Positions 34,917 to 38,995 of a stretch of DNA of 64,000 nt are shown here, one piece after another. The DNA is from Devosia aquimaris (GTDB lineage: Bacteria > Pseudomonadota > Alphaproteobacteria > Rhizobiales > Devosiaceae), in contig NZ_JAIEZN010000001.1 of assembly GCF_020169335.1 (NCBI RefSeq), forward strand, positions 2,159,805-2,223,804, read 5' to 3'. The position numbers were made by a program, and so were the translations under genes. The notes beneath the pieces are model-generated. The model had not been told where the DNA came from, made no database searches, and saw only the letters and a list, made by a program, of their open reading frames with translations. Positions within the stretch are counted from its first letter, which is position 1, and the number at the start of each line of letters is the position of its first letter.

Positions 34917-35026
34917 GCGAACTCTCCTTGGGTGCCTACCGGTATCAGAGGTTTGATGACCACAAAATCAACCGGCGGGGCGATTCTGCATTTTCTTGCC
35001 GGCTGCCATCTGGCATTACGCCTGCG

Positions 35027-35917
35027 ATGATCACCCTGGCCCACATTTCCGACATCCACCTTTCCCCGATGCCCGAGGTGGGCTGGCGCGATCTGCTCGG
35101 CAAGCGCCTGACCGGCTACCTGAACTGGAAGCTCAAGCGCCACGACGAGCTGAACAGCGAGACGCTGGCGAGCCTTGTCAGCCATCTGCAGACCCAGAAT
35201 GCCGATTTCACCGCCGTCACCGGCGATCTGGTGAACCTGGCCCTGCCCTTCGAGATCGAACGCGCCGGCCGCTGGCTGCGGGCGCTGGGCCAGTCGGACA
35301 AGATCGCGGTCTGCCCCGGCAATCACGACGCCTATGTCTCGGGGGCACTGGAAGCCGCCCAGCAGAACTGGGGCGAATATATGCAGGGTGAAACCCTGGA
35401 CGCCGCGGTCTTCCCCTTTGTTCGTCGCGTCGGCGAGCTGGCCGTGATCTCTTGCTCCAGCGCTGTGCCCACCCGCCCCTTCCTGGCAGTCGGACGCTTC
35501 GACGAGGCCCAGGCCGACCGCCTTGGCCGCATTCTCAAGGTCATGGGTGAGGCCGGCTATTTCCGCACCGTGCTGATCCACCACCCGCCCAATCCCGAAT
35601 TGCAGCATCCCTCCTTTGGCCTCAAGGGACATAAGCTGTTCCGCTCGGTGATCGCCGAACACGGCGCCGAGCTGATCCTGCATGGGCACACCCACCGCTC
35701 GTCGATCCACTCCATCCCCGGCAAGGGTGCCGAGGTGCCCGTCGTCGGCGTCGCTGCGGCCAGCTCCGCCCAGGGCGGCACGCTCGATGATCCAGCCCGC
35801 TACAACCTGTTCCGCATCGAGCGCGCCGGCAATGGCTGGAGCTGCACCATGCGCGAGTTCGGTTACCAGCGCCTGGGCAGCGAGATCGTGATGCGCCTGC
35901 AGATGCGCATCTGCTGA
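35027..35917 (+). CDS. Calcineurin-like metallophosphoesterase
   Basis: 296 residues from the ATG at 35027. The five metallophosphoesterase blocks are visible: AHISDIHL (start), GDLVN (near 67), CPGNHDAY (near 94), LIHHPP (near 185) and LHGHTHRS (near 220). Such enzymes cleave phosphodiesters or phosphomonoesters (cyclic nucleotides, UDP-lipids, nucleotides). No signal peptide is seen, so it is cytoplasmic. It lies upstream of and co-directional with murL, 117 nt away, so a role near envelope metabolism is possible but unproven. Confidence 0.85.
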   Translation: MITLAHISDIHLSPMPEVGWRDLLGKRLTGYLNWKLKRHDELNSETLASLVSHLQTQNADFTAVTGDLVNLALPFEIERAGRWLRALGQSDKIAVCPGNHDAYVSGALEAAQQNWGEYMQGETLDAAVFPFVRRVGELAVISCSSAVPTRPFLAVGRFDEAQADRLGRILKVMGEAGYFRTVLIHHPPNPELQHPSFGLKGHKLFRSVIAEHGAELILHGHTHRSSIHSIPGKGAEVPVVGVAAASSAQGGTLDDPARYNLFRIERAGNGWSCTMREFGYQRLGSEIVMRLQMRIC

Positions 35918-36034: not shown

Positions 36035-37375
36035 GTGACCCCTTTGACTGAACAGTTCCGCATCGAGCGCCCGCACTTCGACCCTGCCACGGGGCTGGCC
36101 AGATTTGGCTATCGCCTGGGCGACCTGCATTTCGTGGAAACCCTTGGGCTGCCGCCCGGCAGCGATGCCACGGCGGCCACCAGCGCCAATTTCATCAAGC
36201 TGCTCGACCTGACCGCGATTGTGCTGGGCGTCAGCTATTTCAAGCTGCGCGCGCCGTTTGCGATTGTGGCCGATGCCATTCCGCTGACGGAAAGCGAGCG
36301 CGCCTTTGCCATCGACATCTATGAGAATGGCCTGGGCGAATTCTACGCCCGCAACCAGTTGCAGCGCTTTGGCCGGCTGACCATCGACGCGCCCGACGAC
36401 GCCAACGCCCCCCTGCCCCGTGTCCAGCTTCCGGAACGCACCTTGTTGCCGATCGGCGGCGGCAAGGACTCCTTGGTCAGCGTCGACCTGCTGACCCACA
36501 CCGGCGTCCCCTTCACGCCCTTTGCCGTCAATCCCAAGGGGCCGATCCTGACCTCGGTTACCGCCATCGGCACCGATCCGGTCTATGTGACCCGCACGCT
36601 CGACGCCGAGATGATCCGCCTGGGCAAGGAACCGGGCTACTACAACGGCCATGTGCCCTCGACGGCCATCAACTCGATGATCGCCGCACTCTGCGCCCTG
36701 CTCTATGGCTACAACCAGATCGTGCTCAGCAATGAGCGCTCGGCCAGCGAGGGCAATGTCGAGTTCGACGGGCGCGAGACCAATCACCAGTATTCCAAGT
36801 CCCTGGGCTTCGAGCTGCGCATCGCCGGCATTCTGGCGGACGCCACCGGCGGCGCGCTGCAGTATTTCTCGCTGCTGCGGCCCTATTCGGAGGCCCGCAT
36901 CGCCTCGCTGTTCACCCACGAGACCAAGTTCGACCACGTCTTTTCGAGCTGCAACCGCAATTTCCGCCTGACGGGCAATGACGGCCCGCTGTGGTGCGGC
37001 GAATGCCCCAAGTGCCACTTCGTCTTCCTGATCTTTGCGCCCTTCATGGCCAAGGACAGGCTGCTATCGATCTTCGGCAAGGACCTGCTCGACAATCCCG
37101 CGCACGAAGGCTCGTTCCGCGAACTGGCCGGGCTCGCCGGCCAAAAGCCATGGGAATGTGTCGGCGAAATCCTCGAGGCCGCAGCCTGCCTCTATACGTT
37201 GACCCGCCACGCCGACTGGCACGAGGCCGCCGTGGTCCGTGCGGTTAAAGCCGATCTCCTGGCCCAATATGGCGAGCCGCGCCTGCAGGCCGCCATGGCC
37301 GAATGCCTGACGGACAGCCACGACCACCACATTCCGCCCGCGCTGGCAGCAAAGGTGGCGGCCTATGCGGTTTGA
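36035..37375 (+). CDS. murL: UDP-N-acetyl-alpha-D-muramoyl-L-alanyl-L-glutamate epimerase (MurL)
   Basis: 446 residues. It carries a PP-loop-like ATP site PIGGGKDS (GGGKDS at 141-146), NERSASEGNVEFDGRETNHQYS near 235, and a Cys cluster WCGECPKC at 320-327, the hallmarks of MurL first described in Xanthomonas. MurL converts the terminal L-Glu of UDP-MurNAc-L-Ala-L-Glu to D-Glu in an ATP-dependent step. The stop overlaps the start of a MurD2-type ligase by 11 nt, the same pair used in that pathway. The start is GTG 36035 (GAGGGG 11 nt upstream) or TTG 36044. Confidence rests on the motif set plus the partner gene. Confidence 0.88.
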   Translation: MTPLTEQFRIERPHFDPATGLARFGYRLGDLHFVETLGLPPGSDATAATSANFIKLLDLTAIVLGVSYFKLRAPFAIVADAIPLTESERAFAIDIYENGLGEFYARNQLQRFGRLTIDAPDDANAPLPRVQLPERTLLPIGGGKDSLVSVDLLTHTGVPFTPFAVNPKGPILTSVTAIGTDPVYVTRTLDAEMIRLGKEPGYYNGHVPSTAINSMIAALCALLYGYNQIVLSNERSASEGNVEFDGRETNHQYSKSLGFELRIAGILADATGGALQYFSLLRPYSEARIASLFTHETKFDHVFSSCNRNFRLTGNDGPLWCGECPKCHFVFLIFAPFMAKDRLLSIFGKDLLDNPAHEGSFRELAGLAGQKPWECVGEILEAAACLYTLTRHADWHEAAVVRAVKADLLAQYGEPRLQAAMAECLTDSHDHHIPPALAAKVAAYAV

Positions 37376-38666
37376 CGAACCCGTCCTGCTCTATGGCGCT
37401 GGCCGCGAGGCGCTATCCACCCGGGCCTTTCTCAAGGCACGCCAGCCGGACCTCAAGGTCTATGTGACCGTCGACAGCGGCACCGCCGACATTCCCGAGA
37501 CGACGCCGGTCGCGCTCGAAGAGCTCCCCTCAGCGCTGCGCAACCATCTGGTCGGCCATATCATCAAGAGCCCGGGCGTGTCGCTCTACAAGCCCGTGTT
37601 CTCGATTGCCCGCGACGCCGGCATTGCCGTCACCTCGAACCTCAACCTCTGGGGCGGTGCCTACCGCAATGGCCGCACGGTGATCGCCATCACCGGCACC
37701 AAGGGCAAATCCACCACGGCCACGCTTGTCCACCTCATGCTGACCCGCTCGCGCATCGATGCGGGCCTGGCCGGCAATGTCGGGCTGGCGCCGCTCGACA
37801 TCGCGGATCGCCACGCCGTGGTGATCTTTGAGCTGTCGAGCTATCAGACCGCCGACATGAACTTCCTGCCCGATATCGCGGCGGTGACCAATCTCTATCC
37901 CGAACATGTCGACTGGCATGGCTCGGTCGACACCTATTACCGTGACAAGCTGCACCTGATTGACCGCGATGGCGGCTTCCCGGTCGCCCTGGGCGCCGCC
38001 GCCAAGGGCAATACCCGCGTCGCCATGGCCGTGCGTGACCATCGCCGGCTGATCCGCGATCTCAGTGCCGATGAATTGTCGGCGGTGGATGCCGCCGTCG
38101 ACCGCTCGCGGCTCAAGGGCGCACACAATCGCGACAATGCCCATCTCGCCGCGCAGATCGCCCTGGCCGCCGGCGGCACGCTGGACGGCATTGTCCAGGG
38201 CATTCGCGCCTTCTCGCCTTTGCCGCATCGGCTGGAAGAACATGAATTCGGCGCGACGCTGTTCGTCGACGATTCCATTTCCACCACGCCCGAGGCAACC
38301 AAGGCTGCCCTTGCCGCCTATGCCGGCCGGCGCCTTGCCCTGATTGCCGGTGGTCATGAACGTGAGCAGGACTACGCCGAACTGGCGCAGCGCCTGGTCG
38401 GCTACGGGGTGACAACCCTGGCCTGCCTGCCCGTTACCGGTGCGCGACTGGCCAGCGCCACGCGGAGCGCTGCACCCTATATCGGCGTCATCGAGGCGCC
38501 CGATCTTGCGGCAGCCATGCAGGCCCTGCGGGCGCGCAGCGACGATTTCGACACCGTGATCCTCTCGCCCGGCGCACCATCCTACAACCAGTTCAAGAAT
38601 TTTGAGGAACGCGGCGACCGTTTCATCGCACTTGCGCGCGATCTGTTCGGTCCATCCACACCATGA
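37365..38666 (+). CDS. murD2: UDP-N-acetylmuramoyl-L-alanine--L-glutamate ligase (MurD2-type)
   Basis: 433 residues of the Mur ligase family. The ATP-binding P-loop GTKGKST is at 111-117, followed by ELSSYQ, NLYPEHVDWHGS and the C-terminal ligase part with LIAGGHERE. It differs from ordinary MurD in adding L-Glu to UDP-MurNAc-L-Ala, to be epimerised afterwards by MurL; that specificity is inferred from the overlapping murL gene. It overlaps the next gene (SMR transporter) by ATGA. Whether the genome also holds ordinary murD and murI cannot be seen here. Confidence 0.86.
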   Translation: MRFDEPVLLYGAGREALSTRAFLKARQPDLKVYVTVDSGTADIPETTPVALEELPSALRNHLVGHIIKSPGVSLYKPVFSIARDAGIAVTSNLNLWGGAYRNGRTVIAITGTKGKSTTATLVHLMLTRSRIDAGLAGNVGLAPLDIADRHAVVIFELSSYQTADMNFLPDIAAVTNLYPEHVDWHGSVDTYYRDKLHLIDRDGGFPVALGAAAKGNTRVAMAVRDHRRLIRDLSADELSAVDAAVDRSRLKGAHNRDNAHLAAQIALAAGGTLDGIVQGIRAFSPLPHRLEEHEFGATLFVDDSISTTPEATKAALAAYAGRRLALIAGGHEREQDYAELAQRLVGYGVTTLACLPVTGARLASATRSAAPYIGVIEAPDLAAAMQALRARSDDFDTVILSPGAPSYNQFKNFEERGDRFIALARDLFGPSTP

Positions 38667-38995
38667 ACGGGGCCATCTATCTGGGCATTGCCATCGTCGG
38701 CGAGGTGATTGCCACCTCCTTCCTGCGCGCCTCGCAGGGATTTACGCAATTGGTTCCCAGCGTCGTGGTGGTGCTGGGCTATGGCATCACCTTCTACTTC
38801 TTCTCGCTGGCGCTGCAGACCATCCCCGTGGGTATTGGCTATGCCATATGGTCGGGCGTGGGCATCGTTCTGGTTTCGCTGATCGCCTATTTCGCCTATG
38901 GGCAGACCCTAGACCTGCCGGCGCTGATCGGCATGGCGCTGATCCTTGCCGGTGTCCTGGTCATCAATCTCTTCTCGCACTCCAGCGCGCACTAG
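38663..38995 (+). CDS. Small multidrug resistance (SMR/EmrE-type) membrane transporter
   Basis: 110 residues, four membrane helices, with the proton/substrate-coupling Glu14 of EmrE conserved (IVGEVIATS) and the helix 3 motif YAIWSGVGIVL. SMR proteins work as antiparallel dimers exporting cationic compounds, guanidinium or, in relatives, polyprenyl-linked molecules. Its start overlaps murD2, making it the third gene of the murL operon, an unusual place for a drug exporter. The stop overlaps the convergent gene in CTAG. Confidence 0.9.
   Translation: MNGAIYLGIAIVGEVIATSFLRASQGFTQLVPSVVVVLGYGITFYFFSLALQTIPVGIGYAIWSGVGIVLVSLIAYFAYGQTLDLPALIGMALILAGVLVINLFSHSSAH

Follow-up and report, generated by a model that had tools for sequence, protein, structure and literature searches.

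MurL and MurD2 in Devosia aquimaris: a probable dedicated route to peptidoglycan D-glutamate, with a predicted QueC-like core in MurL

A MurL–MurD2 locus in Devosia aquimaris

By which route does Devosia aquimaris obtain the D-glutamate (D-Glu) of its peptidoglycan? The question is raised by a locus in a 64,000-nucleotide stretch of contig 1 of its 3.81 Mb genome (hereafter, the window), where three overlapping open reading frames (ORFs) follow one another on the + strand at 36035–38995: MurL (36035–37375, GTG start, 446 aa), the MurD-like ligase MurD2 (37365–38666, ATG start, 433 aa), and an EmrE-like transporter of the small multidrug resistance (SMR) family (38663–38995, ATG start, 110 aa). 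MurL overlaps MurD2 by 11 nt, and MurD2 overlaps the SMR gene by 4 nt. These ORFs, both overlaps and the MurL motifs are as a preliminary description of the sequence had given them; the MurL, MurD and SMR family models agree, and the Hyphomicrobiales-like host it proposed is matched by the placement of Devosia in Devosiaceae, Hyphomicrobiales. The closest named MurL match is from Devosia sp. FKR38 (93%).

We consider it very probable that this locus carries the MurD2/MurL route to peptidoglycan D-Glu; no other dedicated route was found in this Devosia. The assignment rests on gene order, the lack of glutamate racemase (murI) or D-amino-acid transaminase (dat) genes over cut-off, a division and cell wall (dcw) cluster devoid of murD, L-Glu-type residues in the ligase, and the distribution of the genes across genomes. 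MurD2 would first attach L-Glu, MurL would then flip it to D-Glu in place, and MurE of the ordinary dcw cluster would extend the product. Both reactions, as well as the formation of AMP, are known from published enzymology of other bacteria, whose authors advanced an adenylate mechanism as a hypothesis; for the pair in the window, we infer enzymatic activity from the features listed above.

The murI model TIGR00067 found no match in the Devosia genome, and the dat model TIGR01121 gave a sole match, which at 107 bits fell short of its 277-bit cut-off; this candidate was rejected, as the match was IlvE, the branched-chain transaminase. Only one ligase in the genome, the gene adjoining murL in the window, passed the cut-off of the MurD model (TIGR01087, 257.9 bits; cut-off 211.95). 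In the dcw cluster (L146), murE, murF, mraY, ftsW, murG and murC follow one another, and mraY is separated from ftsW by 120 nt; murD, which occupies this slot in E. coli K-12, is missing from it. The check suggested in the preliminary description, for murI, dat and a second murD, therefore returned none over cut-off, and its assignment of the pair to the MurD2/MurL route, to which residues E180 and R333 of the ligase can now be added, is upheld.

L-Glu-type residues and phylogeny of the ligase

L-Glu specificity of MurD2 from Xanthomonas oryzae is set by E197 and R358, with the exchange E197D/R358K switching the enzyme to D-Glu, and E. coli MurD K319T accepts L-Glu (PMC8788868). When aligned to the positions discussed in that work (published E. 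coli MurD numbering, Met1 omitted), the window ligase has the L-Glu-type residues E180 (37902–37904, + strand) at E. coli D182 and X. oryzae E197, and R333 (38361–38363) at E. coli K348 and X. oryzae R358, together with I305 (38277–38279) at E. coli K319 and P405 (38577–38579) at E. coli A414 and X. oryzae P433. We then compared these four positions across a family sample of 136 genomes, assigned to Devosiaceae via named relatives, in which 110 loci gave 107 ligases (87 distinct sequences), those of L038, L082 and L114 being incomplete. At the D182, K319 and K348 positions, E, I and R were present in 107/107 MurL-linked family ligases, and P occupied the A414 position in 106, with one gap. Ligases adjoining a MurL over the Xanthomonadales cut-off (n = 9) likewise had E, I, R and P, and those of other MurL genomes (n = 9) had E and R throughout; at the K319 position eight had I and one had N, and P was found in eight, with one gap. 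Canonical MurD from other Hyphomicrobiales carried D, K, K and A in 30/30 (best-scoring 30 of 121 genomes).

In a tree of 56 ligases (the window, 21 of the 107 family sequences, both groups of nine, 15 of the 30 canonical sequences, and E. coli), one branch (100/99) separated MurL-linked from canonical ligases, with E. coli MurD and L143 forming long branches. This split indicates, at the level of sequence, that the Devosia ligase groups with other MurD2 rather than being a remodelled alphaproteobacterial MurD. Since the window ligase nonetheless passes the NCBI MurD model, which bears the D-Glu ligase name, automatic annotation probably assigns the wrong substrate to MurD2-type ligases.

Distribution of MurL and murI

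MurL was detected (E 0.001) in 131/136 family genomes, including 117 of the 119 of good quality, and murI over cut-off in 0/136, with weak matches in 62. Across a sample of 398 Pseudomonadota genomes, MurL occurred in 20 (own genome included) and murI over cut-off in 278, with no overlap between the two sets; weak murI matches were seen in five of the 20 MurL genomes (G229, G289, G419, G437 and G528). In the family labelled f48, all seven genomes with MurL fall in genus g133, and strong murI was seen in ten genomes of genus g120; within genus g109, one MurL genome (G243) stands beside murI genomes. The side-by-side occurrence of both kinds of genome within g109 and f48 points to repeated swaps of routes. 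In Devosiaceae, murI and canonical murD would have been replaced by the MurD2/MurL pair, probably early in the family. As a separate observation, MurL was split into two matches in three of the genomes G012, G022, G061 and G113, with an in-frame stop in G113; these may reflect either sequencing error or true loss.

The preliminary description had called the pair unusual in a Hyphomicrobiales-like chromosome. This does not hold, given the presence of MurL in nearly the whole family and the listing of Devosia, Pelagibacterium and Parvularcula for the route in a 2021 review (PMC8788868), because of which the taxonomic part of our finding was already known. The same review describes the route as a proposed narrow-spectrum antibiotic target. 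MurD2/MurL is thus a known, uncommon route to D-Glu that appears to be the default of nearly the whole family rather than an oddity, backed by a fixed residue signature. What is added here is that signature, a dcw cluster devoid of murD and the predicted QueC-like fold of MurL.

Other possible sources of D-Glu

A conventional racemase, either YgeA-like or a moonlighting DapF, might instead supply free D-Glu, leaving the window ligase as an ordinary MurD. The Devosia genome encodes a YgeA-like Asp/Glu racemase (L178 1483–2169, contig 2), which scored 204 bits with TIGR00035 (cut-off 93.1) and 279 bits, below the cut-off of 417, with NF007569, as well as a second gene of the PF01177 superfamily (L177 1492–2226, contig 1; 184 bits), so that another source of D-Glu is possible. 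E. coli has ygeA yet still requires murI. TIGR01087 would label the window ligase a D-Glu ligase, and DapF is reported as a D-Glu racemase in Chlamydia (PMC5885031). Against this stand the L-Glu-type residues, found in every MurL-linked family ligase and in 0/30 canonical ones, the occurrence of MurL throughout most of a family in which all TIGR00067 matches are sub-cut-off, and the lack in the Devosia genome of a second MurD over cut-off that could use D-Glu. We therefore regard supply by a conventional racemase as highly improbable. The preliminary description had named an essential murI as something that would make the pair dispensable; the expectation that murI would be missing stood, whereas a genome free of racemase-like genes was not what we found.

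Several observations do weigh against the MurD2/MurL assignment, the two racemase-like genes among them. The Devosia genome is 92.7% complete. MurL was not found in five of the 136 family genomes, two of which are at least 90% complete, and the best weak murI match in the family (113 bits, G007:C236:1055–1654, L117) comes from a genome that also has MurL. The window MurL matches NF041275 (the MurL_Xanthmoales equivalog model) at E 2e-115 with 385.9 bits, under the cut-off of 700 set for Xanthomonadales, which was passed by 0/136 family genomes and 9/398 Pseudomonadota genomes. Finally, the pairs that PMC8788868 names as assayed include none from Devosia.

Predicted fold of MurL

Two motifs stand out in MurL: GGGKDS at residues 141–146 (36455–36472, + strand), which conservation and a core fold match mark as the probable PP-loop of a predicted ATP-pyrophosphatase core, and C306 ... 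C321xxC324xxC327 (36950–37015, + strand), a putative QueC-like zinc site assigned from conservation and comparison with the motif given in PMC13329287. G141, G142, G143, K144, D145 and S146 were invariant across 52 aligned MurL rows, as were C306, W320, C321, C324, P325, K326 and C327, and the motifs are therefore not due to chance. Upon addition of 19 more distant rows, including Xanthomonadales-like MurL (71 rows in total), GGGKDS and C306/C321/C324/C327 remained at least 98% conserved. In the structural model, the MurL core is predicted with confidence to adopt the fold of QueC/QatC ATP-pyrophosphatases, and it contains both a PP-loop and cysteines arranged in a QueC-like motif. MurL would thus share a core fold, a PP-loop and a four-cysteine motif with QueC, QatC and Cap9. 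It differs from them in the spacing of the cysteines, C(x)14CxxCxxC after a GGGKDS loop, compared with the C(x)8CxxCxxC and SGGxDS that PMC13329287 gives for the QueC family, and in having no QueC Pfam match (PF06508, up to E 1, 52 MurL rows). A separate QueC is encoded in the Devosia genome.

On balance, we favour the view that MurL is a repurposed QueC/QatC-type ATP-pyrophosphatase, the PP-loop of which, a feature that we infer by mapping it onto MurL, would adenylate the alpha-carboxylate of the peptidyl L-Glu and drive one-way epimerisation; a QueC-like PP-loop core would explain how MurL converts ATP to AMP. Taken by sequence, the link between MurL and QueC is weak, and several results weigh against it. 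Alignment of MurL and QueC profiles with hhalign gave a probability of 3.6%, and 8.6–9.0% in another comparison (as controls, reversed profiles gave 0.1–1.9% and a MurD profile gave 0.7%), the 52 rows found no credible Pfam family at all, and the whole-length MurL model aligned to QatC in Foldseek with a TM score of just 0.40 (root mean square deviation 11.2), while the isolated N-domain had no QatC among the matches listed. The same results speak for an alternative in which the resemblance is that of generic Rossmann-like PP-loops and MurL catalyses epimerisation by another scheme, a reading that the predicted core fold and the shared motifs lead us to consider rather unlikely.

If MurL is indeed a QueC-type enzyme, the fold offers a testable active site for an epimerase that reviews from 2018 and 2021 described as having no known domains. 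This point appears to be new; the two QueC-family papers from 2026 that were searched make no mention of MurL or of peptide-Glu epimerisation chemistry. Peptide-carboxylate activation would then become candidate chemistry for QatC, the immune reaction of which is called unresolved in PMC13279940, and for which PMC13329287 favours deazaguanylation of the QatB N-terminus.

The SMR transporter gene

The product of the third ORF scored 94.5 bits with PF00893 (gathering score 23.7) and has Glu at residue 14, in agreement with the preliminary description. Its nearest solved relative is EmrE, to which it aligns over the full length (115 bits) and with which it shares Glu14; unlike EmrE, it falls below the Qac/EmrE equivalog cut-offs (NF033137, 147.2 bits vs 188; NF042984, 123.8 bits vs 226). 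Relatives (E 1e-15 or better) were found in 88/136 family genomes. The gene followed MurL on the same strand, at a distance of no more than 3.5 kb, in at least 68/131 MurL genomes, 43 of its own genus and 25 of five other genera, a lower bound because broken contigs were not excluded. Among 80 named loci, 72 extend at least 1.5 kb beyond MurD2; SMR was present there in 37 and not found in 35. Linkage was also seen in Maritalea mobilis (L113) and in four of seven testable Pelagibacterium-named loci. In Candidatus Devosia symbiotica, one of the 37, the two parts of the SMR match lie in different frames (L060 8623–8953), with MurL and MurD2 open; at L060 9033–9684 in the same organism, a tetratricopeptide repeat gene matches only in fragments. 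Outside the family, we searched extended stretches surrounding MurL in the remaining 19 MurL genomes of the Pseudomonadota sample, and SMR was not found near MurL in any of them (tblastn, E 0.001); in 17, the sequence continues for at least 4.1 kb past MurD2.

The preliminary description had suggested that the transporter might handle a cell-wall-related or stress compound, and it could be a working part of the wall route, such as an exporter of one of its by-products or a defence against a compound that targets the wall. The 4-nt overlap, the same-strand linkage across several genera, and the fact that the Devosia genome yielded no second PF00893 gene are all compatible with such a role. Nevertheless, the failure to find it in about half of the family MurL loci and its absence from 17/17 sufficiently long loci outside the family leave a cell-wall function unsupported, and its frameshifting in Candidatus Devosia symbiotica next to intact MurL and MurD2, together with EmrE as closest solved relative, makes this role quite unlikely. 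The SMR gene is probably a passenger EmrE-like efflux gene, passed on together with the cluster and frequently lost, and its putative transport function would not be needed for the pathway. The expectation that it is conserved in the same place in relatives thus held in part: other genomes share the linkage, but it was not found in the other half of the family or outside it.

Other neighbouring genes and comparison with Xanthomonas

A calcineurin-like metallophosphoesterase gene (34928–35917, + strand) lies upstream of murL across a 117-nt gap. Such a gene was present upstream on the same strand in 65 of the 74 named loci that have 1.5 kb or more of flank; the gap ranged from 3 to 5698 nt and did not exceed 100 nt in 40 loci. 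Inside the family it is a commoner neighbour of MurL than SMR. It was not found beside MurL in 19/19 genomes outside the family (tblastn, E 0.001). MurD2 adjoined MurL in 18 of these 19, the remaining contig ending first.

Like the X. oryzae MurD2/MurL pair (XOO_1320/XOO_1319), the Devosia locus has adjacent murL and murD2 and the E/R/P residues, in a genome devoid of murI over cut-off, and its MurL shares the conserved GGGKDS and four cysteines with Xanthomonadales-like MurL. It differs in the MurL score relative to the Xanthomonadales cut-off, and in its neighbours, metallophosphoesterase and SMR here as opposed to a lysA-like decarboxylase upstream in three Xanthomonadales-like loci. In eight outside-family loci, the upstream genes were lysA-like decarboxylase (three), histidine kinase, D-glutamate-cyclase-like, RecJ, MgsA and one unassigned. 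In outside-family genome G192 (L134 399–1475), no MurD2 was seen and the contig ends 89 nt past the MurL frame; the gene upstream of MurL is the D-glutamate-cyclase-like one (PF14336).
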